A stretch of 64,000 bases of DNA, taken from contig NC_049991.1 of assembly GCF_000003815.2 (NCBI RefSeq), forward strand, positions 12,248,955 to 12,312,954, written 5' to 3'. This document shows positions 1-54,277 of the stretch, in pieces. The notes under the pieces were generated by a model. That model made no database searches. It was not told where the DNA came from and saw nothing but the letters and a program-made list of their open reading frames with translations. This DNA is from Branchiostoma floridae. Lineage: Eukaryota > Chordata > Leptocardii > Amphioxiformes > Branchiostomatidae. Both the position numbers and the translations under genes were made by a program. Position 1 is the first letter of the stretch, and each line of letters starts with the position of its first letter.

Positions 1-437
1 ATTCTTCAGTCCCAGAACCAACTGAAATCACAAAATGAAAACAGCTACATATCTATCTATCAATAATGAAATGTCAGAGCACTAGTTTCGTGAACATGTA
101 ATTTGAATTTGTGCCATGGTAACTCTAGCTGGTTTCCGATGACCTTCTTGATTTGTTGCACAGAACTTGTACTTGGTAACAGACATGCCTCCTCACAGTG
201 CTACATCTATGCATCTTTGGACGATAAAAGCTATATAATATCTTTGTTATGTATTGAATATACATCAACTGATGTTACGGATGCAGTATACCTTTTCAGC
301 ACCAAGGACAGTGACTTTCAGCACATACATGTACCATATTTTTTTAATTTCATGGTGTATAATAAAAGCTATTTTGGGTTATAATATCTTTGATATACAT
401 TTGTATATCAAACATACTAACTGAAGAAGTAGTTTAC
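1..437. other. intron 3 of the minus-strand SLC26A11-like gene (no exon seen)
   Basis: The splice donor of exon 3 is at 437-436 on the minus strand. No match to the next SLC26A11 exon (LIFGLKNVRR-type) is visible to the left. The stretch holds an RE1-like motif at 295-315. Confidence 0.6.
295..315 (+). promoter_or_regulatory. RE1/NRSF-like motif
   Basis: Starts TTCAGCACCAAGGACAGTGA. It matches the known REST element at 18 of 21 positions, and the mismatch at position 11 falls in the two-base centre where known RE1 sites vary. Located in an intron. Seven similar motifs lie elsewhere in the window. Binding is inferred from the motif only. Confidence 0.5.
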
Positions 438-2309
438 CTTGACTTGTGAAGTAGCTATGGTGATGGCAGCTGCAGAAGAGAAGCCTGCTAAGACTGGGAA
501 GGAGATGAAGTTCACCAAAAACCCTGGAAAAATTGAGTAACATTCAGGTTTATTTGCATACATGATACACACAACTTACCCAGCACCAAGAGGCCACGTC
601 TAGCGAAATAATAAACGTTTAACAAGGACAACAACAACAATAACATTCAGACTTTGGGCATTACTAGTACCATCCATCAAATTAAAATGTGTGGATTGAT
701 TATTGCAACAACATTATCACACAGATACAGTTATCATGTAGCATCAGATTACAGGGTTTCAGGACTCACCTAAGTGTAGAACTCCCATGAGGAATTGCAC
801 ACAGCCAGCTAACAGGCACAGGACTACTGCATACACAGGCTCCCCATTTACGTATTCCGCCACCATGAGAGTAGTGATGGCGGTTGGCCCCAGTGTCACG
901 TGTCTCGAGCCTCCAAAAACGCAGTAGACGAAGCAGCCCATGAAGGCAGAATACAGGCCATACTGTAGGAGATGACATAATTATTCAAACACTTCTAACA
1001 GTAATCAACCACGAGTGATGACATCACAAGAAAGTAGCCATTTGTGTAACGCTAGTTCACCTTTATCCGTCAGGTAACCTATATCCGTTGTTTTTGAAAC
1101 AGGGTATTTAAGGATATAAGTCTACGACCGTTGGTTTCCAAATGCAATTTTTTTTCAAATACTTCAATTTGTCAATTTGTCGACTCGATATCCCTAAAAA
1201 GCCTATCAAAACGGATTTAGGTTACTTCGCGGATAAAGGTGAACTAGCGTTACATACATTAAGATTTTTATGTATGCTTGACAAGAAATATGCAGCGTTA
1301 TACATTTTTCTTTTTCTTTAAACTTAAAGGCAGCCTTATTCACTCATATATCTTTACAGTATGATGTACATGCTGGTATTATCAATTCTACAGTTTGCAA
1401 AAATGGCCCTTACTGGATCACTTGTCCCAATTTGCTGTAAAAGAGCTGAAGGTACATATTTATGACATCGTCTAATTGCACTGGTGATGTTTACTGACCA
1501 AGAGCAAACATGTGCTTGTTAGGAATTAACCTCTGACTTCTTGGAGATAATGTTGACCTCGCCTGACCTTGTAATTTTGTGGTCCACTGCACAACAATGG
1601 CTCAGGTTGGGTCTTAGACCTGCACTCTGCAAGTGGCCAATTTTGAAATAGATTTTATTTGAAATTCAGGTTGTTTCAAGTGATATAGATCATTAAGATT
1701 TTTAATCATCATAAAAGAACATTTCATTTAAGAAAATGTTTGACCACATCCCATTTGAAAGTGATTTATAATCAAGCCCCATCTAAATTAGTAACAACCT
1801 CGGAATTAATACAGGTCATGATGCGAATTATACACCATATAACGTAAGTGTTGGTCTGTCTCTTGTACAAACTCTGTGTACTGGATTCATGAGTCTTACT
1901 TTAAATCTGTTGCCGACTTATCTTTGTTGTTTACCCTCTACCTCTTTAGTTGATTATCTACTACGCCACGAACGATAACAGGGATAGGACGTTTCGGGCT
2001 GCACGTACGCACACCAGATCTCACCTGTAATGGCAGCTCAGCCAAGGCTGCGTAAGCCAACCCCTGGGGGATCACTGTCAGTCCCACCGTGAAACCCGCC
2101 ACAAAATCACGGAACAACCACGCCAGTCGGTACGTCGGCAACCAAGTCAAGATGGGCAATCGTGTCTTTGCCGTTTTGACGGTACAGCAGCTTCGCAAAA
2201 ATCTGCTGCATCCTTGTTTGATGTCCTCTCTCCATCCTTGGTCCTCGCCATCCCTGTTTCCCAGTTCGTGGATGGCCACCTGCGTTCCGCTGTCCACCGT
2301 GTCGCACAT
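438..2309 (-). CDS. SLC26A11-like: SLC26A11-like anion transporter, partial (first three coding exons)
   Basis: Minus-strand gene whose later exons lie left of the window. Exon 1 is 2309-2025 (95 codons from ATG at 2309), exon 2 is 962-770 and exon 3 is 523-438. All have GT-AG borders and the same lengths and phases as exons 2 and 3 of the complete plus-strand gene that starts at 4047 (193 nt and 86 nt). Exon 1 carries the SLC26 start of transmembrane span 1 (GLTVIPQGLAYAALAELPLQ). Exon 2 carries YGLYSAFMGC and LGPTAI, exon 3 GFLVNFISFPVLAGFSSAAA. Family knowledge: SLC26A11 is a sodium-independent sulfate/chloride exchanger of plasma and lysosomal membranes with a UraA-type fold. Its N-terminus is about 22 residues longer than that of its neighbour. 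The two genes are transcribed divergently from a 1.7-kb spacer, so they look like an inverted duplication. The missing C-terminal part cannot be judged. Confidence 0.88.
575..648 (+). repeat. dispersed repeat tail with ACA-rich end, copy 1
   Basis: About 74 bp running from TTACCCAGCAC through CCACGTCTAGCGAAATAATA to an (ACA)n-rich end. A second copy is at 43212-43285 in the opposite orientation. The shared sequence ending in a simple repeat suggests the 3' end of a SINE or LINE. The family was not identified. Confidence 0.55.
1045..1254. mobile_element. 210-bp MITE in intron 1 of the minus-strand SLC26A11-like gene
   Basis: The termini are inverted repeats: TGTAACGCTAGTTCACCTTT at the left and its reverse complement at the right, continuing imperfectly inward through TATCCG and AGGTAACCTA. 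There is no coding capacity, so it is a non-autonomous DNA element. No clear target-site duplication beyond the TGTA/TACA ends could be assigned. Confidence 0.75.
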
Positions 2310-4046
2310 CGCCTACTGTCCTTGAGTATTATCTCAACGGGGAGCACAATTCAACAACACCTATCTCATCCCTTTGGCTCACCTGTCACGTACGTGAGCG
2401 GCAAAAAACATCTGCTGCTGCTCCTCGGATCCTCGTGAACAGATTTTTGCGCGAAAACAACGCGTTGTGATATGATACAGAACACTTCCGGACACGACAC
2501 TATACATCCAGCATTACATACAAACTGCTGTGTTTAACCTGGACACCTTGTTGGCACAGTCAACAGTGGGTGTCAACGATTGGGCAGTTGTTCCTACCTC
2601 TTGACTGAAGACCTAGGCATACGGCACGCGTTTTGCAAGCTCAGTGTGACTTGCAGTTTGCACAATGTCAGATAGCAAACAGATGTTGTGAATAGACCAA
2701 TCCAAGGTCGACTAACCTTGGATATGGATACAAAGATATTTTTTCCTTTAAAATATGACGCCAAATATCAAATCTTTATATCAATATTGTAGTGAGTAGT
2801 ACTAGCAGACTTCTACTAGCGGCACATCTGAAAAACAGGCAATTTTATGTTGAATTTAGGGGAATGGTTGAATTGAACCCCCCTTCGCTCAACCCCAGTG
2901 GAACCGTCCATTCCATGATGTCATACGGTTGCGTCATGGAATACCCCCAGTAGCTTCCTGAATTTGCTTCTCGGGATCAAGGTGCTTAATTGGGTTCATG
3001 GGGCAAAACAATCTGCATTGTGGGACATACATAGTGCTTAGGTTGCAGTGGGCATTGGAATGTGTAAAGTCTGATGATTTTGGAAGCAGAGAGATGTTGA
3101 ACGGCTGTCTTTCTTTCCCGTGTCGACTTTAATTGCGTGTCAACGTTATGTTTGTACGATTAGCTTTTATAAAGTACTACAATAAGTGTTGTTTTTATTA
3201 GTCTTAGCTGCATACCTTACTAAAGAACAGACTGAAATAGTTGAACAAAGACTTGAGGACATTAAAACTTTTCAGTTGTTGGTGTCGTCGCAAAAAAAGG
3301 TGATCGTTTGGAAACGCTTGAAAACAAGTAACTAAAACAACTGGCTTATTGATCAGTTTTCTTGTTTTGCAAACATGCAAAAAATAGTTTCTTGCAAGCA
3401 TCACATGCCTTGTCGAAAAAAATTCCACAATGGAATTGTGACCATCTGTGACAATCGCCAATGTCCTCTTAGACCTTTTAGGCAAGTTAAGTCAGCATTA
3501 TTATATCGGTTACCTACATAAATATTAGTTATAATATGGCTTTTTGGAGAAGTTAGGATACTCTCATGATAAGTGAGACTGACATAGAGGGATACACTTT
3601 TGACTAATCCTAAAGGTTTGACTGCCTTGTAGAGTTAAGCTCGGAACCTTAATGTGAATTGTTGAATCATCCAACGAGCTTCATTGTTTTAAATTAAAAA
3701 TCAATCTATCTTAAGTTGGAAGAATTTTGCCAGCCTTTGCGTCAAATATTGTGCAAGAATGGAGTTTTATCTAATGCGAGTAAAGCTAACCAAAGAAGTA
3801 AACCATTTAAGGTATGATAAAAGCCCGATAACCATTTGTGATAGGAACTGTAGTGTGATACCATAAGGTCAAAGGTTGTTGATGATTGCGGGCACGCAAG
3901 TGACACTGAGCAAAGAAGTCAACGTCCACACGGCGTTTTCCACAGCGTTAGAGCCATGTCCTGGTCGCTAAAAGACTGAAAACTCACACCAGCGATCCCA
4001 CTGAACCAGAGAGGTCCGAGAAGGTCTTCAAGTAACGTCGGAGTGA
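2310..4046. promoter_or_regulatory. divergent spacer between the two SLC26A11-like genes
   Basis: A 1.7-kb stretch between the ATG at 2309 (minus) and the ATG at 4047 (plus). It should contain both 5' UTRs and both promoters. No TATA box could be placed. A 33-bp imperfect palindrome lies at 2910-2942 (ATTCCATGATGTCA facing TGCGTCATGGAAT). A 93-codon open frame at 3204-3485 (minus) resembles no family I know and is not called. Confidence 0.5.
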
Positions 4047-7000: not shown

Positions 7001-10000
7001 CGGGTAGAACTAGGTAGGTGTGTAGTGGCTTCTTTTGTGAGTGAAGACTGTGCTGTGAGTTGTAAGCTTCGGCGTGTAGTCTGGGGTTTTGTGACTTCTT
7101 TGTGTGAAAATTAGTACAGCGCAAGGGACAGACATGTGGATATCATGGATGGGGCTGTGTAAAGATTTGAAAAAGAAGATATGAAATGAAAAATCTTCAT
7201 ACAACCAACCATATACGAGGGCGGTTCAAAAAGTAATGCGACTGGTTTTATAACAGGCTCATTTTTTTCACCGAATGAGTTGCAATTTGGCACAAAGGTA
7301 CAAGAATATATCCTCTTGAGATTGACATATCTCAATTTGTTGTTAAGATTTTTATAAGTGACTGAGTTGAGTTCAAGATGACCACACCCTTGTTATCCCG
7401 TCGGAAGAAATTAGAGGGTCAATTAACGTGCAATTGATAATGTCTCTAAATCACTTATAGCTATTGTAAGGAAATAAAATTGCACATGTATCAAGTTGCA
7501 TTTCTCTATAAGCCACATGCCTATTTTCATCTTTTAAATACAATCACTTATCATTTTTTCGTTCCTGATGTGAAGTAAGGTGGTCAGGGTCGTAATTAGC
7601 GGTGGATTAGGGGTGGTCTGCTTAACGTTTCCATAACCGACTTTTTTATTAACTGAGAAAAATCAAACTTAATACACTTCTTGATCTTGAAACAGTTAAT
7701 AATTGTGCTAAGTTTCGCATCTTTTGGCTAATGGAAAAGCAGTCTACAAAGACCTTTATTCAACAAATCACGTATTTGACTATTAATCAAACTGCCTGTA
7801 ATATAGTAACTCGCTCCATTCTAGTGGCTGTAAAAGATGAACCATTGTGAGTTCAAACATGAAATTTGGCATATAATCTATAGAGACATTTGTTATTGTA
7901 CAGGTAAAATTTCGGCTCCCTACAATAATTCTAGAATGGTAAGATCTAGAGGAACTGATCTCCTGACAAGCTTTTAAGGGTGTGGTCATCTTAAAATCAT
8001 CTCAGTTGCTCATAAAAATTTGCACCACAAATTGAGATACATCAATCTGAACAGGATATAGTCTTGTACATTTGTGCCAAATTTCAACTCATTCGATGAA
8101 AAAATGAGCCTGTTATAAAACGAGTGGCATTACTTTTTGAACCGCCCTCGTATTCAATATATACTATTGGTAAGATTGGTGAAAATAACATAGATGTATT
8201 ACACCATGTATAGTAAGCAAATCAGTATATTGTATGCTGAAGCATACAGTGTATTGCAGTTGCAATGGCTTTGCTTTCAATGAAAGTTTAATTCAAATTG
8301 TATTTAGTCATCTTATTACAATGGACATGTGCATTATGTACTAATACTAACTGCTGGTATCTCTATTGTCTGAAAGCTGTTGTCTGAAGTAGTCTATTGT
8401 ATTAACCAAGTCACTAAATGATAATCCCGGTTCTTCTGTTAGTATGTTTTGCAGTTTTGAATAAAGTACTGTATTACTATCATGCTACAATGTGTAAAAT
8501 ATATGACAATGTGTGTTTCTTCCTGGCTGTTGTAGCTCATCTTTGGACTGAAAAATGTTCGGAGATCCTTCATCTGGAACATCTATGATACATTCAGGAA
8601 ACTTCCAGAAACAAAGTGAGTGGAGTAGGATTTTGCTTGTATATTATTCCTCATTCTGACTATATTATCATTGCTACTGTATAGCATGTAGAAATAGATA
8701 GTTCTTCTACAACAGTAGACATAGCTGTTGTGACAATGTATTTGAGGCAATTGTGAGAAGAAGCTGTCTTTGACAATGTTAATTTTGTTTTCCAGTCACT
8801 GGGACCTGACTCTGGGAATTATATCTTTTGTCATCCTGTTAATAATGAAGTGGTTAAAGGACAGAAACTGGGACAAAGACAGGGACCCCTTCACACCCCT
8901 CACCACAAGGCAGAGGGTTGGGAGGAAGGCTGTCTGGCTCATAGGAACTGGTGAGACCAGTGTCTGATGTTTTGTCATTGTATAGACACATAGAAGAAAT
9001 GGAATATACAGAAATGCTGCTACCTGAATAACGGTATGTTTCTGTGTACAAGGTACTGATTGACAGAAGTACTAAGGTCAGCTACCAGAAGTACCAAAAT
9101 CAACAAGGACTGTCTCCAACACCCACATGTACCTACACACCAAATATTCCACCGGACATGCACAAACACACACACAAGATCCATGCCACAGTGAAAACTG
9201 TACCTCTTTTTCTTATGGAGGTAAATATGCATGTACAGCACGTCCTTACTTTTGCTATAAAGTATAAACTTTAAAGGTCTACAAAAAATCTATAAATGGA
9301 GTCAAGTCTTCAATGGTTATTTGCCATATACCTGTGGTCGTTTATTGATACTAACATGTGTTTGTTTTCTATCTTTCTCCAGGAAGGAATGCTCTTATTG
9401 TAATTGTGACGACAATCCTTGCTGGTATTCTCTTCAGCAACAACATTAAACCCTTCACAATGACCAAAGATGTGCCACCTGGGTTCCCTAAAGTGGGGCC
9501 CCCTAGCTTCTCTTACCAGCATAACAACCAAACTGTAGAAGGGGAGGAGTTTCTAAGTGTAAGTGTGTGCAGTTATGTAAGCTGTCTTCTAGATGGAACA
9601 GAATTTATCAATGAGTATGTGATCAATTTACATGATATAACTCCAAGCATGCAAATGGGCGATTTTGCAGAAATAGAGCAAAAGTTAAAGACTGGCATTC
9701 CCCACAGTAAGGATGATGCCTATGGGCATTTTTGTACAGAAATAAAATGATGAAATAATAGCACAAGCCTATTACTTTTCTTCCATCGTAACTCATCACA
9801 GCTAATACATCCCTGGCCAGTGAGATGTTGTCATCTTTAGACATAAATATGTATATATATTTTCTTACAGAATTTAGGAGCCGGGATTGCAGTCTTACCT
9901 CTCATTGCAATACTCGAGACCATTGCGTATGGTAAAGCCTTTGGTAAGTCTTCTTTCATCACCCTTATTGTAGGACTAAGGTTGTGTCTTTTCAGAAATA

Positions 10001-13000
10001 TAATGCTTTATTTGAATTTGGCAGTTTTACCAAATATTGCAGTGATCAATATATCTCAGCAAAAATATGAACATTGATACTTTTTAGATAGTCATTGAAA
10101 TGCTTTTCTTACAGCATTACTGATAAGTAGCACAAAAGTTGATACTGATGATAAGATGCTCTTAATCTTGCTTCCTTTACAGCAAGTAGGAACAAATACA
10201 GAATAGATGCTACACAAGAACTCTTAGCACTTGGTAAGTACCCATGGCAAGTAACATATAATCTTACCTCGAATTATACAGTGCATAAAAAAGTCTGTAT
10301 TACTACCAGTATACTCCTATTGATGCTGAAGAAGAGTGATGGATGTCACTTGAAATGTCCGGAAGTAAACCTCCATTTTGTACCCAGTTATAGAGATTAA
10401 ATTGTATTTGAATACCAGCATAAGAATTTTCTCTTGTTGAGGCTAAACAGAAGGATTGCAGACCAATTAATACAGTAGGTGGGCCCTACAATTTTGTATC
10501 ATCTGGTGGAATCATGTACCTTTTGACCTTTTGAAACTTTTTTTGAGAATGTAGATCTCATTTGATATATACTAAAGGTACCTCTGTCCATTCCTCCCCA
10601 GGTATTGCCAACATAGTGAGTTCGTTCTTCGGGTCGTACCCCATGTCCTGTAGCTGCTCCAGAACAGCCATCAACTCCACCAGTGGGGTCAGGACTCCTT
10701 TAGGGGGGATCTTTGCAGGTCAGTCATTTTGGTAGTTTCTTTGTTGTAATATACCTGCAGTTTTTAAGATACTCATGACTCTATGGGCATTTTTAAATCA
10801 TTATTATGTACAACCAAGGACGTTATATGACATCCTTGTTACAACATGAAAAGCACTTACTGTCAGTCTTAAAATGTTTTAGACCAAGAATTCATGGCAC
10901 CAATAATTTGCATCTTCAATGAATTTCTGAATTGTTTCAACTGCAAAGCTTCAAATAACATGAAAAACTCCTCTCCCAGATCCCCTCCTACCGGGAAATT
11001 AAGTCTGCAAAAATGAATTGATTAATTTTATAGCACTTGGTGTCCTTGTGCTTAATGACATGGTTTTCTTTCTTATTATTTATATGTTTGTTTATTTGTT
11101 TCTTGTTGTTTGTGCACAGGGTTGCTGGTGATCCTAGCTCTAGCATTCATCATGCCATATTTCCGGTACATCCCCAGTGCAGTACTAGGAGCAGTCATCA
11201 TTGCCTCAGTTATCAACATGTTTGAGTATCAGGTCATCCCCAAACAGTGGAGGATACACAGTGAGTTTAGGCATAAGTTTATAGTAAAAATTATTGTAAA
11301 TTAGACTATCTACTCTAATTACATTTCAAAGGAGTCAGGCAGCTTCCCGGGTCCGGCAGCTTATTGCATCTGGCACCTTACCGGGTCCAGCAGGTTACCG
11401 GGTCCGGCAGCTTTTTGGCCCGGGCCCGGCAGCTTACCGGACCCGGCAGCTTACCGGGTCCTGCAGCTTACCGGGTCCGGCAGCTTACCAGGTCCGGCAG
11501 CTTACCGGACCTGGCAGCTTACCGGATCCGGCAGCTTACCGGACCCGGCACCTTACCGGATCGGACAGCTTACCGGGTCTGGCAGCTTACCGGGTCCGGC
11601 AGCTTACCGGGTCCGGCAGCTTACCGGGCCCGGCAGCTTACCGGGTCCGGCAGCTTACCGGGCCCGGCAGCTTACCGGGTCCGGCAGCTTACTAGACCCG
11701 GCATCTTACCGGATCCGGCAGCTTACCGGGTCAGGCAGCTTACCGGGCCCGGCAGCTTACTGGGCCCAGCACCTTACCGGGTCCTGCACCTTACCGGGTC
11801 AGGCAGCTTACCGGGTCCGGCACCTTACCGGGTCCTGCACCTTACCGGGTCAGGCAGCTTACCGGGTCCGGCAGCTTACCGGGCCCGGCAGCTTACTGGG
11901 CCCGGCACCTTACCGGGTCCTGCACCTTACCGGGTCCTGCACCTTACCGGGTCAGGCAGCTTACCGGATCCGGCAGCTTACCGGGTCAGGCAGCTTACCG
12001 GGTCCGGCAGCTTACCGGGCCCGGCAGCTTACCGGGCCCGGCACCTTACCGGGTCCTGCACCTTACCGGGTCAGGCAGCTTACCGGGTCAGGCAGCTTAC
12101 CGGGTCAGGCAGCTTACCGGACCCGGCAGCTTACCGTGGAGCCCTAAAGATTAGCTTGATATGTCTGGAAAATTTTTCATAAGCAAAGCTGACTAACTCT
12201 TTTTTTTTCTGCCACAGAACCAGACTTGTTAGTGTGGATGGTGTGCTTCTTATGTGTGTTGTTTCTAGGAATCCAGGTAAGCACTTCTAAATTTTCCATA
12301 TATCCATCACTCAAACAGATCAAGATATAACCAGATAGATGTGGTCTTGTAAGTAATACCTGGTTCATCTGAAGATGCTTCATTGTTTCATTTTGATACG
12401 CTTTGTGTGAGGTTTGTAACCTGATGTAACCTTCTACAGTTTGGCATCCTTGTTGGAGTGGGCCTGGGACTGGTTATTGAGCTGTATGGATTAGCCAAAC
12501 CTGGCACAAAGGTACCGCAATATTCTACATGGTTTGATGACTTATTTGTGGCTTTCAAAAACTGATTCCACACTAGCTGTTCATATAAAATGTATATCAT
12601 GTATGGATTACATAATTTGTAGTTTTTGGAAAATGACAGCTCAGAGACGGTATTAGATCGGTTTTGACTTTATCTGTCTTTCTCAAGAACCAAGTATGGA
12701 TTGCAGTTTGTCAACAAGATCAAGAACACAGAAGATTAATTGAACCCACCACACTTGATATTATGACTCAAGAGTAGTATGCCTGTGGGGGGGGGGGGAG
12801 TCAAAAGATACAAGGACAGGACACCTCCAGACAGTTGCATTCCTTCTCTAAATTTCTATGGTAAGGTACATAGAAAGATTCATGATGTATGATAAATATG
12901 AAGGAAGGGTAAATGCTTAACTTCACATGTAAATGTTACTCTTCCAGGTTGACACAATTGACTGCTGCCCCAAGATCGTGGTAGTCAAGTTTGACAAGGG

Positions 13001-18321: not shown

Positions 18322-18342
18322 AGTCCTGTCCTTGGTGCTGAA
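18322..18342 (-). promoter_or_regulatory. RE1/NRSF-like motif
   Basis: On the minus strand it reads TTCAGCACCAAGGACAGGAC. Paired with a second motif 39 bp away in the same orientation. Confidence 0.45.
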
Positions 18343-18360
18343 TGAGTGATTGAGTGATGT

Positions 18361-18381
18361 TTCCCTGTCCTTGGTACTGAA
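18361..18381 (-). promoter_or_regulatory. RE1/NRSF-like motif (weaker)
   Basis: On the minus strand it reads TTCAGTACCAAGGACAGGGA. It has one extra mismatch, C to T, in the left half. The copies at 18322 and 18361 may be a local duplication. Confidence 0.35.
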
Positions 18382-19290: not shown

Positions 19291-19346
19291 TACCGATGTA
19301 CTGTGTTATCATCGGGCGAATTTTCTGTAGTCACTTTTCCCCTGGT

Positions 19347-22300
19347 CTACCGACCACTCTGATCTCTGTATCGGGGGTTATTTCGCATTGCATAGACGTA
19401 GGAAGGGAGAGGCTTGCAACGTTCTCGCAATCTAACGACCCCCTTGTCATGTAGCGACTTCAGTGCTTTATACTCGTTGTACATCTTGTGTGGCCCTTGT
19501 TCAAAGTTGTAGCGGCTCCTCCTCTCGTAATAGTGGTAAGGCAGGCGGTTGCCCTCTCTGTCGTGGTTGGAGGGGTAGAAACCGTAGAGCGCCACCTGGC
19601 GGCATACAGAGGCTGCGATGGTGTACATGCATAGGCCAGTCGTGAGGCGAGGCACTTCCAGCTTGCGAGTGTTCCAGAACCTAAGAGATGTTTAAAAGTC
19701 AATTTACATTGTTAGCTGACTTTAGCGAACATTTGCAAAATTGTCTGGACATTAGCAACATAGAGGGCGTGCCTTTGGCAATGCAATATAAGACCTATGC
19801 CCTTTCGGCCATTCTCATACGCGGAGAGCCCAGCGTCGTTTTGCGACGACGTTGGACTCTCTGCGTAGGATAGGAGAATGGCTGAATGCTTTGGCAGGAA
19901 ATACTTTACTAACTTAAAGGTATCCTTTTGCTGTTAAACCTTTGATCGTATGTAACAATGATAGGATACGTATATACTAAACTTTCCTTTCCTTTTGTGA
20001 AACCGATCATCATACATTCATGTCCCCGTGTAGCGGAAAGTGTCACTTTACAATATGAAAGCAGTAACGGTTTTACTTGTGTGAGATGTACATATCGTAA
20101 AGTGACTCACTTGAAGATTGCCCTGGTGACCTCCTTTGTCGGATACAATGGCTGCAATGGCAGTCCGTTTAACCTCTCTCCCATGAGAATGGAATTTAAC
20201 AAGTTCACTTCCCGCTCTCCCATTTTCGACACGAAGGCGGGGATCCACAGAAAACCGTCCCCTATCTCCTCCAGTCGGTTGATGAATCTTTTCCTGCTGT
20301 TTTCCGAGTTGACCCGGTTGTAGTACGTCTTGAGAACGCTAGGGTTCATGGTAGTGAAGTTCGTACGGGTCCCCACGTCCACGTGGTATCGCGAGATCGG
20401 CGCGAGATTACAGCGAAAGACGAAGTCAGCGGTGTCGATCTCGTCTCCGCATCTGCTATCCCTGAGATGAAACGAGGGACATTATCTTTTTTATCATCAT
20501 TTGTAGGGTATTAAACGGGCGTGACATTGACGTTTGAAAATTGAAAACAACTGGCGTTATCATTTGTCACACAAACTTTTTTCCGGACACATACACCAAA
20601 ACTGAAACTGTCGTGGAAGCTGCTCAATTCACCAGCTGCTTGTCTTGCTCAATGGGAGACCTACGCTAGTTCATCAGTGATTTACCACACATAACCGACA
20701 ATCAACCAACCAGACAATGGAACTACACTGTAGTATATGACCTCTGATATAGCACCTACCTGAGTATACCCCCATTGCCCACTACTGCGCATGTGTTGTA
20801 GAACTTCCCATCGAACGGTGACGTTTCGGGCAGCAGCACGTACATTGGTCCAGCCAATGTGACGTAGTGTTGAGGTTCGACGTCATACACGATCTTCTTC
20901 CCCACCTTGGCCGAGCTCTTGGTGAGGGAGATGTCCCGTTTGATGTGACACTCCTCTTCCAGCTCGTCCCTGTGTGTTCATATCATACAGTCTTAAAGAC
21001 CTGTCCTATTGTGTATGTGGTGTCATAAGGCATCGCTGGGCCCTATAACCACCAAATACACCACCGAATGAGCAAAGCAAAGCCAAAGGAGGTGATTTAT
21101 GAGGTGGTTATAGGAACTGACAGTGCCTAGCTTCAACACCGTATATAACGAAGGAAAATAGGCCATAAAGTTGTTATCATACAGCCATCTTGATATATCA
21201 AATTGAAACATGCATTTGTTCTATGAAAACAAAATACTTCGGTATCGCGACAAGAAAATTATCAGATTAAAATCATAACATCAGCATTATATCTACGCAG
21301 GAGAGCCGGTAAAGATACAAGCACACCTGAAGGATGATGCGGCCTCCTCGTCNNNNNNNNNNNNNNNNNNNNNNNNNNNNNNNNNNNNNNNNNNNNNNNN
21401 NNNNNNNNNNNNNNNNNNNNNNNNNNNNNNNNNNNNNNNNNNNNNNNNNNNNNNNNNNNNNNNNNNNNNNNNNNNNNNNNNNNNNNNNNNNNNNNNNNNN
21501 NNNNNNNNNNNNNNNNNNNNNNNNNNNNNNNNNNNNNNNNNNNNNNNNNNNNNNNNNNNNNNNNNNNNNNNNNNNNNNNNNNNNNNNNNNNNNNNNNNNN
21601 NNNNNNNNNNNNNNNNNNNNNNNNNNNNNNNNNNNNNNNNNNNNNNNNNNNNNNNNNNNNNNNNNNNNNNNNNNNNNNNNNNNNNNNNNNNNNNNNNNNN
21701 NNNNNNNNNNNNNNNNNNNNNNNNNNNNNNNNNNNNNNNNNNNNNNNNNNNNNNNNNNNNNNNNNNNNNNNNNNNNNNNNNNNNNNNNNNNNNNNNNNNN
21801 NNNNNNNNNNNNNNNNNNNNNNNNNNNNNNNNNNNNNNNNNNNNNNNNNNNNNNNNNNNNNNNNNNNNNNNNNNNNNNNNNNNNNNNNNNNNNNNNNNNN
21901 NNNNNNNNNNNNNNNNNNNNNNNNNNNNNNNNNNNNNNNNNNNNNNNNNNNNNNNNNNNNNNNNNNNNNNNNNNNNNNNNNNNNNNNNNNNNNNNNNNNN
22001 NNNNNNNNNNNNNNNNNNNNNNNNNNNNNNNNNNNNNNNNNNNNNNNNNNNNNNNNNNNNNNNNNNNNNNNNNNNNNNNNNNNNNNNNNNNNNNNNNNNN
22101 NNNNNNNNNNNNNNNNNNNNNNNNNNNNNNNNNNNNNNNNNNNNNNNNNNNNNNNNNNNNNNNNNNNNNNNNNNNNNNNNNNNNNNNNNNNNNNNNNNNN
22201 NNNNNNNNNNNNNNNNNNNNNNNNNNNNNNNNNNNNNNNNNNNNNNNNNNNNNNNNNNNNNNNNNNTAACAGTTGCGACATCGTACCATCTTATATAACA

Positions 22301-25300
22301 CTCTGGGTGCCCAATGACCCATATTTTTCTCTAGTCACTTGCTAAACTTTGGTAGAGTGTGCTGTGCACCGTGACTCGTGCTTTGTACATTAGTACAATG
22401 CTGTAATATTCACGCTTGTTTTCGATTACTTTGAAGGTTTGCGACACCTGGTCGACTTGTGTGATTCTGGGAAAGAATCAGTATTGCGACTACGTCCGCA
22501 AAGGAAGCTGGGAAAAGTAAATGTTTTGAGACTTCAAGTGTCGCCTTTCACCCGGCAATGTACCATGCTATGGGACAATGTAGAACAGCTTTCTGAGCTC
22601 CAAGCTTCCCTGAAAATGGTAGGTTCCTACTACAGTTCTTGCTAACTGTATAACATCTCAACAGTAGCAGTTCCTTGAACATTTTTGCGAGTCAAGAATG
22701 TATGCTGTATATTTTCAAAACCTGACTGGCAAATTAGCAAGTTCAAGATTTTCAAAGGCAGTCTTTTAAGACTAGTGAGCTAGTTGCATAGAGCTACGTG
22801 ACTTACTTGTGTTTGTGGTTCAGACATTCTTTCACGAAGAAGATTCCTTAGAAACTTGTAAACCGCGGTAACGTTACCTGAACACTTCTACTTCCACACA
22901 TGCATGCATATGCATCAGAGTGTTTATACACTTTTGTTAGTAGGTGTCCTTTGTTCAAACGATGCATGGATATTACGGCTTTATAATCTTCAATTGTGTG
23001 CAGCTATTTGCTCGCATTGCACACAAATCTATTTGTCAATTAGTTTGAAACTATTTTAGGAGTTTGAAGTTTTAACAGCAGCAGATGTGACGCATTATGG
23101 AAGGTTCCAAAGTCAACTGCCCCCTATCGATGAGAACAGGAAGCGCAGCACCTGAGTAATAATACCGGTATCAGTGTGTCTCTCCTTGTATGGGTATCTA
23201 AAAACCGGTAAGACTCTTCAACTGGAAGTGCGATGACCTTGTGTATGGTAACAATTTTTGTTTTCCTGTCTGTCTGATCTTGAGATTATATTCATAGTTA
23301 TCCCTGTCAGTCGTGTTTTAAGTAAAGAACATCACGCCAACAGTGAACACTACCCATGTATCCATTCCCGTGAGAGAGAGGTAACTACTTAATCTGTTTG
23401 GACATTGCTGGAAGGACCTACTTACGATGTCTTATTTACATCAGTTGTACACCATTTTGAGCCTCTACGTGATCCAATCCTTGACACGCGGCTAGGCATA
23501 CAATATATACTATTGTACAAGAAGCAGCACATTCTAAACCTATGTCTAGAAGAGTTGTGGAAGACACTGCAAAGAGGGTGTAACTAGTTGCGAAATTGGT
23601 GGAAGGATATTTTGTGTGATGTCACTTTCTATATACTCAAAGCTTCGTTGGCTATGACTATGACGAACAACATCACGGGTAAAGGATAGGTACAAAAGGT
23701 CTTGGAGTTGGATAAAACATTATGCTATGGTAGATGTTCGGCTGGAAAGAGTAGAATACAGGGCTCACATGAGTGTCTAACCACTGCACATGCGGAATGT
23801 TCACTGGCTTCGTATTGAAATGATACATTTCACTGGTAGCGTAAATGCTGCTCGGAGACAACTTTTATAATCAAGGGAAAACTAGACAACAATTTGATTG
23901 ATAATGTGTGGCCCAGGGCTTAACATTACGTGAACATACCGGATGTACTGTGTTATCATCGGGCGAATTTTTCTGTAGTCACTTTCCCCTNNNNNNNNNN
24001 NNNNNNNNNNNNNNNNNNNNNNNNNNNNNNNNNNNNNNNNNNNNNNNNNNNNNNNNNNNNNNNNNNNNNNNNNNNNNNNNNNNNNNNNNNGTACGTCCAG
24101 TTCCCGGTGTTGAGGAGGGCCTTTGTGCCGTACATGGTGTTCCTGACCACAGAGAAGCACATGCTGCATGAGCACACACGTACACACAACCATCAGCATG
24201 CACAATCATCTGCAGAAGGAACTCAAGGCAAGTACATTTACGTGCAATTTTCTATATTATATTTTATAAATAGAGAATCTCTAAGCTGACCAGGACACAT
24301 GTACAACCGTTCAGCCGCTTGGAGTGTGCTGTTTTAAACTTGAGATATCAATATAACACTAACATTTTCTGCTTCATCTTAGTAATGTCACTGATTTCTA
24401 TACATCCTAAATCTTGGGAATGAAACAACTACCATAATAAATCTGAAACCTTCATAAACGCACCACAGCAATGATCTTGCAAAAACAAACTAAATGAAAT
24501 ACAAAGACATCATTGAAAATAACCAGCGCTGATTCAGTGCGCTTCTACCGAGTACAAGTAAAAACACAGAACTGTTTTACAGAGCTAAGGGACACTTTCT
24601 CGAGCATTTTGATCAGTCTATCATAAGGCAAAACTGTGCCATAAATATGCCACAGTCGTTAACTCGCGGTGACTGAGTGTGTGCAGCTCCAAGGGAAACG
24701 AATGCCTGTTTCGTTAACCAATTAGGTCTCCTGTGGCGATACTAGCTAAAGACGGGGCAAATCATTACGTGCCTCCTTCATCATGTTTTCTCACAACCAT
24801 TGGCAGCCTGAGTCAGAGTAAGGAATCTGGCTACCAACTGCGACTTGTCAACACTCTTCAGTCTTCAGCAAACAGCGACGCGGTGTAAACAGTTGTGTCT
24901 TGCAACCCATAATATATACTTATCACAATATCCAATGTGGTGATCAACTCACCTACAATTGTTTTATTCGTTTAGAAATTCTTCTGACTTAAAAGCATAG
25001 TTCTCTTCAAATTGGCATCGCAAAAAGCAACGTGAAAAAAAGTAGTCAGAAGAAGCCCTGTCCGTTACTACATCTTTTATTTCCGATTCCACATCTACTG
25101 TAAGTACTGCACGTACATCTGCGTCACGCTCTGAAGACTTTCTCATCAATCTGTTTAATATTAAGTTCCATTATGTAGCAATGATTAAGACTGATCGACT
25201 GTAGTTAAATTAGATAATCCAACATCAATTTTACCATGCATATAAACAGGCCGGGGCAATCAAGCATGTAATCCTGTGCACTATTTCATGGGGTAGGGTG

Positions 25301-32639: not shown

Positions 32640-32677
<38 letters not shown>

Positions 32678-35623: not shown

Positions 35624-35644
35624 CTCGCTGTCCGGGGTGCTGAA
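35624..35644 (-). promoter_or_regulatory. RE1/NRSF-like motif, close to the vertebrate consensus
   Basis: On the minus strand it reads TTCAGCACCCCGGACAGCGA. It matches the classical RE1 at 18 of 21 positions, with the right half GGACAGCG intact. Lies 3.8 kb upstream of the sialyltransferase start codon. Confidence 0.55.
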
Positions 35645-36714: not shown

Positions 36715-36760
36715 GTTGTATACAATAACAGTTTTGATTGTATACAATAACAGTTTTGAT
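36715..36760. repeat. two-copy short tandem repeat
   Basis: The sequence TATACAATAACAGTTTTGAT is present twice in direct succession. Confidence 0.85.
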
Positions 36761-40302: not shown

Positions 40303-40323
40303 TTCAGCACCAATGACAGACAC
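40303..40323 (+). promoter_or_regulatory. RE1/NRSF-like motif (one core mismatch)
   Basis: TTCAGCACCAATGACAGACA. Differs from the core shared by the other copies by one base (GGACAG to TGACAG). Confidence 0.35.
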
Positions 40324-41819: not shown

Positions 41820-41831
41820 GGGGGGGGGGGG
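41820..41831. repeat. G12 homopolymer
   Basis: Run of G in intergenic DNA. Length probably unreliable. Confidence 0.7.
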
Positions 41832-43211: not shown

Positions 43212-43285
43212 TTGTTGTTGTTGTTATTATTGTCGTTGTTTAACGTCTATTATTTCGCTAGACGTGGTCTCTAAGTGCTGGGTAA
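43212..43285 (-). repeat. dispersed repeat tail, copy 2
   Basis: Reverse-complement match of 575-648: on the minus strand TTACCCAGCAC, then CCACGTCTAGCGAAATAATA, then an (ACA)n-rich end. Opposite orientation to copy 1. Confidence 0.55.
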
Positions 43286-44838: not shown

Positions 44839-44859
44839 TTCAGCACCAAGGTCAGGGAT
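44839..44859 (+). promoter_or_regulatory. RE1/NRSF-like motif (one core mismatch)
   Basis: TTCAGCACCAAGGTCAGGGA. The right half has one change (GGACAG to GGTCAG). Confidence 0.35.
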
Positions 44860-47800: not shown

Positions 47801-48574
47801 TCAATTAGGGTTTCTTTCCAGTTGTGTTTTTCCTGACACATGAAAACTGTACCAGAAACTGTCGTTATGAATTTAACGTTGGAGGATTTTATAGGGGCAA
47901 ATGCTTTACGCCCACGAAAATCGCTACCACTACATTGCCTTGGACTTGATAAACATGTTGACTATATTTGGCATTCTAGTAGAAAAACCAAGGCGTCAGT
48001 GCCAGCGTATTTCTGCTGACAACTTAATTCTTCTTGTGTTGTTTTAGGAAGACAATATTAAAACAATAATACAGGCCGTACGTCGAGATGAAGGTTTCTA
48101 ACAAGGGCGCTAACATAAAACATACTAAGAAAAACATGTTCGCCTCAGGGTAGGATTGAGAATGTCAGATTCTTGGCGGTCAATTTACCTTTTCTCCAAA
48201 GTGGATTTTGGTTTACAGCATTGTGCAGTATATCATAGTCTATTACTGGTATCTAAAAAGAAAAGCTTCCTATATTCTTGTGTATACGTACTACACTAGA
48301 TAGATGTATATGCAAGAAAACTAAGACCACTACGCTAAAAAGATAGAAATTACAGAAGGTTCGTTACTAGCACATTGCTTTAAAAGCGATTTCTCATGCG
48401 TCCTTGATTTCTTTATTAATATTATCAATAACGCAAGAAAGTAATCAAATCCATCATATTGTGTCGTGCAAGCTATACCCGATGAAAGAATGAATCTCTT
48501 TTGAGTGAAATCACGATAGAATCACCGTCAGCGAATGTCGATACACAGGGTGTGGAAGCATATCTGCTTTACAT

Positions 48575-48705
48575 AAACCAAAGCCACTGACGAAGGATAG
48601 TGGATTCTATCCGAAACGTCTGACCGTTTCAAAACCATATCCAGTTGCTTGAGTAACTATTTTTGGCGTATCTTATTACCTGGATGTCTAACCTACATCG
48701 ACAAA
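48575..48705 (+). repeat. hammerhead-like retroelement remnant, copy C
   Basis: CACTGACGA at 48588, then a GGATAG/CTATCC stem, then GAAACGTCTGACCGTTTC, then CCAGTTGCTTGAGTAACT and TTTTGGCGTA. The order CUGACGA, stem II, GAAA is an intact hammerhead core. A clean stem I around the expected cleavage site is not evident. Collinear with copy B. Resembles the terminal repeats of Penelope-like elements. Confidence 0.6.
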
Positions 48706-49132
48706 GCCAAAGATTTCAAGTGAGATATTGTCGTATCGATATTACTACAGAGTTGATAAAACACCCTGTCAGTTTTGATATGAAATTGACGACTGATAAA
48801 CATCAAGTCCGATGGATTAACCCTCGCCAACAGCCTATGCGAAATGGTGCAGACAAAAAGCCTTGGGCAAAGATGGCATCTACTGAAGTGACAAGTCCCG
48901 GTTTGGGTGTGGTGGAATTCTGCATTCATTTCGATGTGAGTAAGCGAGCGGGGTTTCTTGCCAAAATTTGGACATTTATCACGCCGCGTTTAGTAGATGG
49001 ATAATCTCAACCAATAGCACACAGGCATGTATGGAATGTCTCTAGCTTCTTAGAAGGACTGGAAGACAAGACCTAAAAGAACCATTAGAGAGTAGCTGTT
49101 GTTGGTGTTTTTGTTACTTGAAACCAGGGAAA

Positions 49133-49153
49133 TTCAGCACCAAGGACAGAGAC
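49133..49153 (+). promoter_or_regulatory. RE1/NRSF-like motif
   Basis: TTCAGCACCAAGGACAGAGA. About 0.45 kb beyond the likely 3' end of the LRR-Ig gene. Confidence 0.5.
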
Positions 49154-49575
49154 CGAAAGCAACGTCAACGCTCCTAACAAAATCTAACCTCCTTGCTCCT
49201 AATAAACAAATGCAGTGGTGTTCTTCCACTTGCTTGTTTCTTTTCTATAGTCCTATGTTTGTTTGTAGTATGAAATATCTGTGTAGCAAAGCCTCCTAGG
49301 TTGTAGCTTGGAGTTTCTCAGCCACTCTCCCCTTTCGTCAAAGCCCTACCATCAGCTTCAATTGACAGGTGTTCCGGGTAGGCCGCCATTTAAAGCGCTT
49401 CTAGTATTAGCTATATTGCCTTTGGGCTGGATGATATGAAAGACTTAATAGAGTTTTTCGTGTAACAAGGTATTCAGTTTGGGCTAATATGATACGGGTT
49501 TGTTTGAAATTAGTTTAGCCAAGAGAGACAAACAAAGAGCGATCCGTGTTTTCAACAATGATTTCACCATGTGAC

Positions 49576-50433
49576 TTTATTACAATGAAGCATCCATAGC
49601 TGCCACGTTAACACAATACTCACAATTCTAATGAAATATCACAATTTTCTGACAGGATAATTTGTCATAATTCAATGTACAGACATGACCTCACGATCTG
49701 GGATTTAGGGGTCTATATTCACACAGGACGATTTCATCGCCAAGGGATCCACGGACTTGACATCACTTACATGGAATGTATTGTCGTTGAGAGATATCAA
49801 GTTCCCAAAGGAAAAGTCATGAACTGTTGACACAAAGGCCTAACGTTAATCATAAAAAATTGCCGGGTATCACAATTGATATTGACAAAAGTTATATACA
49901 TTATAGTTAACGTTAGATCTCGATTCAATTCTTGCAAGTTATGTAGCGTTGGAAACACCCTTTGACATCTGACTTATAAAATCTGTTTCATAAATTTTAA
50001 GTTTTAAGTTACAATTCAAACACTGGAAGGGTGCATAATTACAATGGTATTGGTACAAATATTTCAGTAATTATTTACAAGTCGGAATTTTTTCACTGAC
50101 TAAATTGTTGATCACTTTAACGCCAAAGTTTTTGTTCATTTCCACATAGTGCATTTGTCATACTTTTGTTACAATACATTTTTACATACAAAATATACAC
50201 AGCCATTGCCTATTTTTAAAGTGGAAAGAGTGTCGAGTGACTTTACCTTTTCAAGCTGAAACAGTGCTCCTATGCTGCCTGCTATCTCTTAATTAGAGTC
50301 AATTGTACCAATTTTTCTCTGTTCCATCAATCCAGGGTAGGTCTGAAAGTCAGAATGTAAGGAAATAGTTTTAGGTTCTGTCAGCTGCGAGGACATACTT
50401 TGTATCACCATTTATGGTGTTAACGTTATATTC
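49576..50433 (-). other. 3' UTR of the LRR-Ig gene (inferred)
   Basis: AT-rich stretch from the stop codon at 50434 to the first minus-strand AATAAA (TTTATT on the plus strand at 49576-49581). The end point is inferred from that signal only. Confidence 0.35.
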
Positions 50434-52665
50434 TCAAAAGTTTGTACTCTTTGAATGCTTCAGCCGACAGTACTGATACTGTGTGAAAGAAGCCATCGTC
50501 TTGGCGCGAGGAATTCTTCGAGATTTTGAGGCGCGCATTCCAAGGTTTCCTTCCTCGTCTGAGAGATCTTCGTCGTTTCTTACGATGGGTGCAGCTGTAG
50601 CACCCAACAGCTCGGGTTCTATGTCCTCGTAGATGTGCTCCGACATGCGGTTGGTGTCCTCTCGTTGTAGATGTTTTCTCATTGTTGCTTTGGGATCGCT
50701 GTCGTCGGGCGAGCTCATCATTGAGGACCGAAGAGCCGCGTTACGATGCCCGCCTAGAGTGGGATCGTCAACATACGAATTCCTGTTCTCGTAAACATTG
50801 TCCACCAAAGTGACACAGTCTGATCTCGGTCTCACGTTTACGTTTGGTCTGCTACCACTGACGTCGGGCTGTGCTTCTCCGAGCCGCCGCCGACAAATGC
50901 TCAAGAAACCGCAAAGACTGCCGCCATTTTCTTCTTCCTCTTCATCCGTTTCTGTTTTTATGACAACCTTCGGTTTTCGACACTGGATGATAGCGTAGTG
51001 AATGCTGGCCACAGATAGTGTTATGATTGCCATCCCGCACAGAAAAGTACCAACTATGATCGGTCCTAACATCTCTTCCATGTACGTCTTGCCAGGTAGA
51101 GTTGAAAACGTGGTACACACCTTGCTTGAAACACAAAGCCTGTACATTGTTCCAGGCCGCAGGTGCTGTAGATGGTGGTCGGACCCTCCCCCGACTTCCA
51201 CCGCCAGGAGCTTGGAGATGGTTCGGTTCGAGTTTTCATCGAGAATTGTCACGTTCGCACAAAACGGAGGCCGTGCACAATCTAGAGTGCACCCAAATCG
51301 AACTGTTGCTTCGTCCGTTGACACTTTGACAATAGACAGTTCTAAGTCGGTAGTCATTTGTAAGTTCGACCCTTGAGATGTAAATTCTGAGCAAATGTCA
51401 GGAACTTTAGTAGTTGTTTGTGGTTTTGGTACTGTTGGTTGCGGTACAATTCTTCCAGAAGGTCGGGTGGGGATAACACCACCACCTTGCGTTGGAACAG
51501 TTGTGGCCGATGACAAGGTAGGAGCCAAGGGTTTCCCGCCGGGGCTAACAGCTCCCTTCTCTGTGGGACCTTTAGGCGGAGTCCCGGCGGGTGTTGGCGC
51601 GGGTTTGCTCGACGTCGTAGCCACCTCGGGGGTCGGAGTCGTCTTCACAACAACCGGTACAGGATCTCGCGTGAGGGTCAAGATCAGCTTGGAGCTGACG
51701 GATCCTGCGGGATTTGTAGCGACACAGATGTACGTTCCTCTGTCTCTGTACTGCACCGACCGCAGCACTATCATCCTGTCCGTACCCTCATCCTTGGGTC
51801 TCACCGTCCCTGCAGGAGTTATCCACTTGACGGTCGGGAGCGGGTCCCCATCTATAGCGCAGTGGAGATATACTCTGCTCTCTACGGGGATTACACCTTT
51901 GGGGATGGCCCAGGCCCGTGCCGTGGGAGCTTTACATGGTAGCTCCTCGGCTTGATCGACTCTCTCTCCGTGTAGCTCAGCAGGTGTGGCGCAGGTGATG
52001 TCCTTACGCTGCTGAACGTCGACGTTCGTTGTTTTCAGCCAGTCGGCTAACCATTGTACCCCACAGTTACAGTGCCATGGGTTGGCGTGGAGAAGCAAAT
52101 GTGAGAGAGAGTTCATACGGTCGAAGGCACCCGAGGGTAGAGCTGTTATTTCGTTATGGTGTATCCTCAGAGAGCGCAGCTTGGTCATACGATTAAAAGC
52201 TTCAATCGGAATGTACGTTAACTTGTTGTTGTTAAGTTTGAATAGCTGTAGTCCAGGTAGATATTGCAATGACTCCCACGGAAATTCTTTTAGCTCGTTG
52301 TTTCCCAAGTCCAGATTTCTCAGCGCTCCTAGTCGCATGAAGGCCATGTCCGATATGGTCTGTATATTGTTGTAGCTAAGCCATATGGAGTGTACCATGG
52401 AGTACCTGGCCAAAGAGTCGTCAGTTATAACAGTCAGGTCGTTAGCGGCCAGGTTGAGGGAAGTCGTGGTCCGCGGGATCTCTGTGGGAACCGTCTGTAG
52501 GTTTTGGTACGTGCACTCCACCGAGCAGAGCAGAGTGACGTTGTTGCAGCGGCACTTGCAGACCGTCGGGCAGGTGGGGAGCGCCCCTGCCGCCGAGCTG
52601 ACGACTATCCACGCCACGGGGAGAATCAAGAGCAGCGTCCACGGCGTAACGGTAAATTTGGACAT
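50434..52665 (-). CDS. LRR-Ig-FN3-like type I membrane protein (743 aa, intronless CDS)
   Basis: Single open frame. Residues 1-28 are a signal peptide. Residues 32-60 are a cysteine-rich LRRNT (CPTVCKCRC). Five to six leucine-rich repeats follow at about 66-195 (for example LRNLDLGNNELKEFPWESLQ). An LRRCT at 196-244 contains NPWHCNCGVQWLADWLK. An Ig domain lies at about 250-332 with C269, W281 and C314 (DRGTYICVA). A Pro/Thr-rich stalk covers about 335-420, likely O-glycosylated, and a short FN3-like domain about 425-525. One transmembrane helix lies at about 533-560, followed by a 180-residue tail. The tail has an acidic run (DEEEEEN) and tyrosine motifs (VYENR at 624, IYEDI at 678) that could bind SH2 or adaptor proteins. 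The architecture is that of LRIT/LRFN/AMIGO/LRRC24-type adhesion molecules that pattern neurons. I cannot pick one vertebrate orthologue. An intronless extracellular part is common in this class. The start is the only ATG placed just before the hydrophobic leader. Confidence 0.92.
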   Translation of the reverse strand: MSKFTVTPWTLLLILPVAWIVVSSAAGALPTCPTVCKCRCNNVTLLCSVECTYQNLQTVPTEIPRTTTSLNLAANDLTVITDDSLARYSMVHSIWLSYNNIQTISDMAFMRLGALRNLDLGNNELKEFPWESLQYLPGLQLFKLNNNKLTYIPIEAFNRMTKLRSLRIHHNEITALPSGAFDRMNSLSHLLLHANPWHCNCGVQWLADWLKTTNVDVQQRKDITCATPAELHGERVDQAEELPCKAPTARAWAIPKGVIPVESRVYLHCAIDGDPLPTVKWITPAGTVRPKDEGTDRMIVLRSVQYRDRGTYICVATNPAGSVSSKLILTLTRDPVPVVVKTTPTPEVATTSSKPAPTPAGTPPKGPTEKGAVSPGGKPLAPTLSSATTVPTQGGGVIPTRPSGRIVPQPTVPKPQTTTKVPDICSEFTSQGSNLQMTTDLELSIVKVSTDEATVRFGCTLDCARPPFCANVTILDENSNRTISKLLAVEVGGGSDHHLQHLRPGTMYRLCVSSKVCTTFSTLPGKTYMEEMLGPIIVGTFLCGMAIITLSVASIHYAIIQCRKPKVVIKTETDEEEEENGGSLCGFLSICRRRLGEAQPDVSGSRPNVNVRPRSDCVTLVDNVYENRNSYVDDPTLGGHRNAALRSSMMSSPDDSDPKATMRKHLQREDTNRMSEHIYEDIEPELLGATAAPIVRNDEDLSDEEGNLGMRASKSRRIPRAKTMASFTQYQYCRLKHSKSTNF

Positions 52666-53745
52666 CTTTGTCGCCTTCTGAACACTTCTCGCGTCCCGAA
52701 CAGAGTTAACTCAGCCTAAGCTTGGTCCGACAACAGTTCGCGTTTTTCTTTCTCCATGCTTGCTCTGTGGCAAGGAAGCGCGTTAGAAAATAAGCTGATT
52801 ACCATCACATAGTAGTCCCAGTTTCCATCGTTCCCACCTGCAATTTCCCCTCAGAAGCCAGCACCCGTGTGCAGCATGTATACATGAGCGAGCAAGTCAG
52901 CTTTCCGTGGCTGCTCATCCAAACGCCGGATCGACCCGCACTCCTGTCAATCTCGCTGGAGTCCAGCCTTCTGATTGGTCGCTTTTTTCAGGACTTTTCT
53001 TGTGATTCGATTGCTGCGCTCCCTCGCCGGGGGAAATCACACCATCGGCCGTAAATAGGGCCTGATTGCCGCGCGTAAATAGGCACTTATTGCAGTGAAA
53101 ACTTGTCAGGCTCGCCAAATGTACTTAATTTGCAGTCCACAAATAGGACATTAGGCGCATTTGCCTGACAATAAACAGATATCCCGCTTATATTTTACAC
53201 GGTGATGATAGAAACGCCACAATCCTGACATGGCAGTATCTCCTCCAGCATCGCGGGACCAGGATTAAAAGTAAAAATGATTGACAGCTCGAGCACGCGT
53301 TGTACATCTTAATCATACCCAGCCCGAGCACCCCCATCCCTCTGTGGGGTTATGGGAGCAGCGAATATGATCAATATTTTATTGCCCCGCTTTCGCTCTA
53401 CATAATCCATAACCCTGCCGAGCTCTGTGCTGATGAAAAATCACGCGAAATTACTTCCACTTCGAGATGTCTAAATTGAATACTCAGGGACAGGTCACCT
53501 TGTGTGCTATTCTGAACAGATCTGAGATAGAGCTTTGTCACATACGGTCTTCGTTTCATGGAGATTCTTCTATGTGAATACCGGTCGATCTATCCTTACA
53601 TGGCACACATTTGAGTTGTTGGGTGTGATGAGGCCTTCGAGATAATCATATGGTCCTGGGACCACAGAAAGTCGTAAAACGTAATCAAACCCGTCTCTCC
53701 CCCGCCGTGCGTTGAGGGATATGCCGGGACAGGATTTATGATATA

Positions 53746-53800
53746 CGGCGGTTATCATTACTATTAATTGTAGTGATAATGAGGTCTAACCGCCGCCGTA
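53746..53800. promoter_or_regulatory. inverted repeat with facing GATA and homeodomain cores
   Basis: CGGCGGTTATCATTACT and, after ATTAATTGT, AGTGATAATGAGGTCTAACC followed by GCCG. The outer arms CGGCGGTTA and TAACCGCCG and the inner arms TTATCA and TGATAA mirror each other. About 1.1 kb upstream of the LRR-Ig start codon. Regulatory role inferred. Confidence 0.3.
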
Positions 53801-54256
53801 AATCTGTCAAAGGTGCAACATGGCGGGAAAACGGGCAGACTGGGTAGAACGGACGGGCAGGGCGCCATTTTACTATAGCGTGTAAAAATGTCAGGATTTC
53901 GTGAAGGGTGTCTTATGAATTAGCCACGCATTAACAGAGGCAAGCTGTCTTCTTTACACGTAAAATTTGATTATGGATTGGTATATGTATCAATTCAAAT
54001 CTTCATGATATTCTGATTTTACACATGTAAAAAGCTACATAAAAATACATGTACATGTATATGGAAATACGCAGGAGATTTGCTGTGACAAAATTAGGGA
54101 CTCCTAGTATATCTTTTTATACCTGTCAATCACGACAGAGCCATGGAAAACTTAATCTTCTTGTTATGGCTTCGAGACAAAATTAAAACATAGCTATAAT
54201 TACTTCCGCTTTGGTGTGGTGTTGTGACTAAGCGTGTGACGACGTGTGATTTTGGT

Positions 54257-54277
54257 TTCAGCACCAAGGACATGGAT
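54257..54277 (+). promoter_or_regulatory. RE1/NRSF-like motif
   Basis: TTCAGCACCAAGGACATGGA. About 1.6 kb upstream of the LRR-Ig start codon. One change in the right half (GGACAG to GGACAT). Confidence 0.45.

Follow-up and report, generated by a model that had tools for sequence, protein, structure and literature searches.

In the present study, we analysed a 64-kb window (the whole stretch of 64,000 nucleotides) from the genome of the amphioxus Branchiostoma floridae, which lies on contig 13 of the assembly at 12.25-12.31 Mb. Eight short sites in this window carry the core of the vertebrate repressor element 1 (RE1), also called the neuron-restrictive silencer element (NRSE), the element of the zinc-finger protein REST/NRSF. 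These sites form part of a real and surprising sequence class that is genome-wide, and a gene-level reading of them is at the wrong scale. The element is a box with sharp limits at 17 bp and a near-fixed linker of 2 bp; it is abundant, and it occurs both as solo copies and as one copy per unit in minisatellites with differing spacers. From the sequence, we give about an even chance to the reading that the eight sites are members of a genome-wide class of boxes read by a zinc-finger protein with REST/NRSF specificity.

Results

The first-pass annotation of the window had claimed eight RE1-like motifs. All eight were found as sites that fit TTCAGCACC-NN-GGACAG and depart from it at no more than one of its 15 fixed positions, and the positions 18322, 18361 and 35624 given there are the low ends of minus-strand sites taken as 21-bp elements. 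The sites are as follows:

295..311, plus strand: RE1-core box, exact, TTCAGCACCAAGGACAG
18326..18342, minus strand: RE1-core box, exact; half of a 39-bp tandem pair
18365..18381, minus strand: RE1-core box, one mismatch (C6T); the other half of the tandem pair with 18326
35628..35644, minus strand: RE1-core box, fixed positions exact, linker CC, then CGAG
40303..40319, plus strand: RE1-core box, one mismatch (G12T)
44839..44855, plus strand: RE1-core box, one mismatch (A14T)
49133..49149, plus strand: RE1-core box, exact; about 1.3 kb past the 3' end of the LRR-Ig (leucine-rich repeat and immunoglobulin) reading frame
54257..54273, plus strand: RE1-core box with a single mismatch (G17T); some 1.5 kb upstream of the LRR-Ig frame

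Four sites in the window are thus exact and four have one mismatch, while none has two and a single site has three. The 17-mer TTCAGCACCAAGGACAG is present in exactly three copies, as had been noted before, and the exclusion of chance holds as well, since dinucleotide shuffles of the window contained 0.01 sites on average and 0/100 of them reached eight. In a motif-free scan of 42,565 complex 17-mer positions, the box family had seven neighbours within Hamming distance 2 and the best unrelated word had two; two repeats of the window, its minisatellite of 17-bp units and a TG microsatellite, were omitted from this ranking. The half-sites were always 2 bases apart (8/8 sites). Outside the eight sites, the left half TTCAGCACC had 0 exact occurrences in the window, with no left-half enrichment, and the right half GGACAG was in mild excess (37 against 24 in simulated sequence). 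A partial further left half, TTCAGCAC, begins at 317, near the box at 295..311. The flanks of the window sites do not align, in agreement with the earlier description, except those of the 39-bp tandem pair 18326/18365. The window likely holds a local cluster of boxes, with four exact loci where the density at the start of contig 1 predicts 0.32 (P = 3.5e-4), the window having been chosen post hoc. A coding repeat was ruled out, as no box falls inside any exon that was recognised in a scan of 30 frames. The Rfam scan of the window gave no RNA gene at thresholds, and three single matches were found in a viral sequence collection.

Genome counts were made in the window's own assembly (513,431,437 bases) with the reversed box as control. 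Exact copies of the box number 7,427 (3,462 + 3,965), or one per 69 kb on average, and the control was found once. When one mismatch was allowed, the count rose to 16,728 (control 22), which corresponds to a mean of 620 one-mismatch variants per fixed position, from (16,728 - 7,427)/15. The first-pass annotation had held that thousands of evenly spread copies would speak against its reading, and as regards number the copies do run to thousands at either stringency. For comparison, 742 matches to a looser NRSE consensus have been given for Xenopus tropicalis and 1,301 motifs for human (PMC4430910), and a separate report gives 1,333 canonical RE1 motifs in human (PMC2687797). In the available parts of the open-licence papers (including PMC3902484, PMC3145563, PMC3485006 and PMC10605157), we found no description of an RE1 expansion or of an RE1 minisatellite core in amphioxus.

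The resemblance to the REST element, which had also been proposed before, stands for the core and fails for the tail. All 15 fixed positions equal those of the 17-bp RE1/NRSE core, whose consensus is NTYAGMRCCNNRGMSAG; in the 21-bp form, conservation is lower over the final four bases (PMC4430910), and the 21-bp string TTCAGCACCACGGACAGCGCC stands in seven published papers. The degenerate consensus NTYAGMRCCNNRGMSAG is fitted by 4/8 window sites, namely the exact ones. The linker varies, as the 2-bp linker of RE1 likewise does: AA, AG, AC, AT, TT, TG, CA, GA, GC and GT were seen among the first 100 exact places listed, and isolated sites prefer A at the first (27/33) and the second linker position (22/33). 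At position 15, the C-to-G change tolerated by RE1 exceeds the C-to-T transition, which would be expected to prevail (G 40, A 25 and T 14 of 79 merged loci, among the first 100 of 928 variants listed; G against T, p = 0.0005), and this therefore fits the degeneracy predicted from vertebrates. The 'GC-rich end' reported for the window sites is absent, the bases after position 17 being TGAC, GACT, GGAA, CGAG, ACAC, GGAT, AGAC and GGAT. G at position 19 (6/8) and A at position 20 (7/8) are frequent in the window, and just 14/33 and 11/33 isolated sites carry them. The full vertebrate 21-mer was also considered and was rejected, as it is not enriched. One of the 18 cores with a YGCC tail, L052 (G000:C1:832739-832759), is a full vertebrate-consensus RE1, TTCAGCACCACGGACAGTGCC, and is by its sequence a candidate true neuronal RE1.

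The first 100 exact places listed cover the first 8.7 Mb of contig 1 and comprise 44 loci, 35 of them single and nine with at least two boxes; 61 of the 100 places fall in the seven largest clusters (three or more boxes each). The flanks of isolated boxes were compared in sets of 33 and 56 sites, from which array loci were excluded, the set of 33 also excluding loci with a second box. Among the 33 isolated sites, the strongest printed flank column reached 0.34 bits against about 2 bits in the core, a core signal that is built in because the core served to find the sites. Flank identity was 0.27 in register and 0.26 off register among 56 sites, all of which were taken because their box was exact or nearly so and 18 of which were selected for a YGCC tail. 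No second box (up to three mismatches) lay within 140 bp of 45/56 of these sites. The other 11 had 20 extra boxes within this distance, all in the same orientation (20:0) and at many distances, which is a picture of young local tandem duplications starting from single boxes. A dispersed repeat would have common sequence outside the box in every copy, and none was found among the 33 isolated sites; an 8-bp prefix is shared by a subset of 1,013 of the 7,427 exact boxes. Since the isolated copies have no common flanks, they are not fragments of a single long repeat, a view that the first reading of the window had also favoured. At L034, where two boxes lie about 2 kb apart on contig 1, about 50 bp of similar flank is common to both, and larger local duplications may therefore also copy the box.

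Head-to-tail units with one box each make up the array loci L004, L012, L013, L014, L035, L051 and L062. L012 contains 46 boxes at up to three mismatches, spaced 43 or 45 bp, and the unit length is mostly 43 bp in L013, about 40 bp in L004, mostly 51 or 56 bp in L014 and about 62 bp in L062. The spacers of L012, L013, L051 and L033 are alignable, with a commonest length of 26, and that of L015 is longer, TG-rich and alignable to the L012 spacer. When spacers were compared, z was above 3 in 8/136 pairs and most others had no clear relation. In particular, the arrays L004, L014 and L062, the pairs L056, L058 and L059, and the pair at 18 kb in the window have spacers with no detectable relation to this main family. 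Per-column variation was lower in the box than in the spacer in L012 (contiguous 43-bp array; 0.027 and 0.060), L013 (0.030 and 0.133), L004 (0.024 and 0.044) and L014 (51-bp units, n=5; 0.027 and 0.082), a comparison that is somewhat biased toward the box because array units were located via the box. At G000:C4:13690328-13690380, RE1-type boxes stand nearly head to tail with an 18-bp period.

Discussion

The variation within arrays, together with exact boxes standing amid unalignable flanks, suggests that the box is kept by selection. If a REST-type protein reads the class, its binding would preserve the box while flanks and spacers drift. The solo box would then be the original state, and a local tandem duplication there, of the kind seen at 18326/18365, could expand into a minisatellite that retains the box. 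Binding would be expected to recruit the corepressor chromatin machinery known for REST to many loci and repeat arrays, beyond neuronal genes alone. A bolder form of this idea may be put forward, which we consider doubtful: the box would be an architectural element, a REST-type protein would mark thousands of sites and arrays, binding or breakage at a bound box would seed tandem duplication, in the way that satellites of otherwise unrelated sequence can have one box in common, and the vertebrate neuronal RE1 would be a reduced and specialised remnant of an older genome-wide system of chromatin or repeat control.

Several observations weigh against a reader with REST specificity. The changes C6T, G12T, A14T and G17T in the other four window sites lie outside vertebrate tolerance. 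At position 14, the transition leads and C, which RE1 allows, is not in excess (G 47, C 21 and T 20 of 88 loci, among the first 100 of 519 variants listed); set beside position 15, the evidence on a vertebrate-like pattern of tolerated changes is mixed. The tail YGCC follows 18 of the 7,427 cores, against about 30 estimated by chance from the base composition of the window. Half-site spacing is almost always 2 bp: linkers of 3-20 bases number 212 in total genome-wide (control 3), and an ordinary box is contained in 21 of the first 30 long-linker matches (of 100 listed). By human chromatin immunoprecipitation, the regular 2-bp form was found in 350/457 full-length motif sites, and REST also uses other gaps and arrangements (PMC11025195). 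The prefix GGATRGTG precedes 1,013 of the 7,427 boxes. Finally, no REST orthologue was identified in the genome by searches with the Pfam profile and the human REST fingers, the latter of which scored 136 of 3,577 candidates, so that an orthologue may have been missed. The Pfam family zf-C2H2_REST (PF24540) gave 21 genome matches, all above the 27-bit cut-off, with a top score of 32.7 bits, whereas the human REST region scores 91.8 bits; eight fetched PF24540 loci had about 21 to 43% identity to the REST region, like generic fingers. The human REST finger region as query gave 597 zinc-finger matches, the best of which (153 bits, 45% identity) was generic on inspection.

The candidate L078 was rejected as the REST orthologue because it is a generic poly-finger frame on inspection. 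Poly-zinc-finger matches crowd on contigs C158, C10, C16, C200 and C323, and by sequence they point to a large C2H2 expansion. Charlatan is reported as the arthropod counterpart of NRSF, and Charlatan as well as human and fugu NRSF bind a non-canonical NRSE in mariner DNA (PMC4777549); non-vertebrate readers are therefore plausible.

The serious and main rival is that the box is the functionless core of a dispersed minisatellite superfamily, which holds an RE1-like stretch by descent. Isolated boxes would then be worn-out units, or single units freshly copied via replication slippage, gene conversion or template switching. We think this possible and, on the whole, somewhat unlikely. It gains from the common GGATRGTG prefix, by which at least 1,013 copies are one minisatellite family, from the alignable spacers of L012, L013, L051 and L033, and from the fact that most copies are in arrays, as the clustering on contig 1 illustrates. 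The nearly invariant linker of 2, the missing vertebrate tail and the decay of position 14 by transitions point in the same direction. The short dispersed repeat that the first-pass annotation had offered as its alternative accordingly holds for many copies, which are minisatellite cores, but not for the isolated copies, which share no flanks. These isolated copies speak against a functionless core: of the 44 loci within the first 8.7 Mb on contig 1, 35 are single, and exact boxes stand isolated amid dissimilar flanks, whereas in a neutral unit the box would decay as fast as the flank. The unrelated spacers of L004, L014, L062, L056, L058, L059 and the window pair at 18 kb also count against it, and a random core is unlikely to equal RE1 at 15/15 positions. 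This last point bears also on the proposal that the box serves a different protein, for example an amphioxus poly-zinc-finger protein, and matches RE1 by coincidence or convergence. Hundreds of zinc-finger matches (597) are at hand for such a role, and the tail, the linker tolerance and position 14 are unlike vertebrate REST; yet a given box would match RE1 at 15/15 positions by chance with odds of about 1 in 4^15, and we regard this proposal as very improbable.

The local reading in the first-pass annotation was that of ordinary gene-specific RE1 silencers, by which amphioxus REST would silence a sialyltransferase and an LRR-Ig gene outside the nervous system via the eight sites. The two genes are as follows:

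50434..52707, minus strand: LRR-Ig protein, single open frame (LRR_8 1.8e-22, I-set 1e-10)
19350..20977, minus strand: GT29 sialyltransferase, three exons (20759-20977, 20110-20481 and 19350-19691)

We judge such local silencing to be unsupported, and the reading to be quite unlikely. The core does match RE1, the LRR-Ig frame has the box at 54257 some 1.5 kb upstream, those at 18326 and 18365 lie about 1 kb past the last recognised sialyltransferase exon, and the four exact loci exceed expectation in the window, subject to its post hoc choice. However, nearness to any gene is weak evidence because there are 7,427 exact boxes. Four of the eight window sites fall outside the vertebrate consensus, and the window also encodes exons of the sulfate-permease family (SLC26-type) and an RRM protein. 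Moreover, just one motif is found within 100 kb for 80 to 90% of the targets in vertebrates (PMC4430910), whereas eight lie here in 54 kb.

Some other features of the window were observed. Two stretches, at about 19295-19338 and about 23942-23986, are nearly identical (an exact run of 30 bp followed by one indel) and both stand beside N runs; they resemble a duplication made in assembly, within the sialyltransferase gene or close to it. The minisatellite of 17-bp units at 11300-12182 is open or nearly so in three forward frames, since 17 is not a multiple of 3 (open reading frames of 280, 287 and 131 + 152 codons). Arms of about 180 bp at about 7213-7391 and about 7976-8153 form an inverted repeat, as judged by shared 17-mers at mirrored positions, and this is possibly a small DNA transposon.

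The CENP-B box is a 17-bp protein box that is retained in satellite repeat units of otherwise differing sequence. The amphioxus box differs from it in sequence and also has thousands of isolated copies, by extrapolation from contig 1. The 'mirage' minisatellites are likewise short tandem duplications in the amphioxus genome; they duplicate intron-exon boundaries, and no common RE1 core is mentioned in the available part of that report (PMC3087553). Multiplication of RE1-type sites through repetitive DNA is also known from transposable elements: human RE1 motifs were spread by L2 and endogenous retroviruses (PMC2687797), and RE1-type sites are carried by LINE2 and mariner, the mariner NRSE being non-canonical with a longer gap (PMC4777549). 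In amphioxus the carriers are short-unit minisatellites, and the isolated boxes examined have no carrier. With the Charlatan binding element, a REST-like protein that reads an NRSE-like element has been reported from an invertebrate, but this is an insect protein with its own degenerate element, and no genome-wide expansion is described in the available part of the source (PMC4777549). The vertebrate RE1/NRSE shares with the amphioxus box the 15 fixed core positions, the variable 2-bp linker and the tolerance of G at position 15. It has far fewer copies in the sources cited above (742 in Xenopus and 1,301 or 1,333 in human, against 7,427 exact), and, unlike it, the amphioxus box has no enriched GC-rich tail, almost no altered linkers and copies within minisatellites. 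RE1 has so far been studied as a sparse vertebrate control element. The exact cores in amphioxus, many of them in minisatellites, number several times the loose ones of the vertebrates cited. Such an abundance would show that the recognition code predates vertebrates and was put to use at a different scale. The identity of the protein that reads the box, and a possible role of bound sites in the birth of minisatellites, thereby become testable questions.

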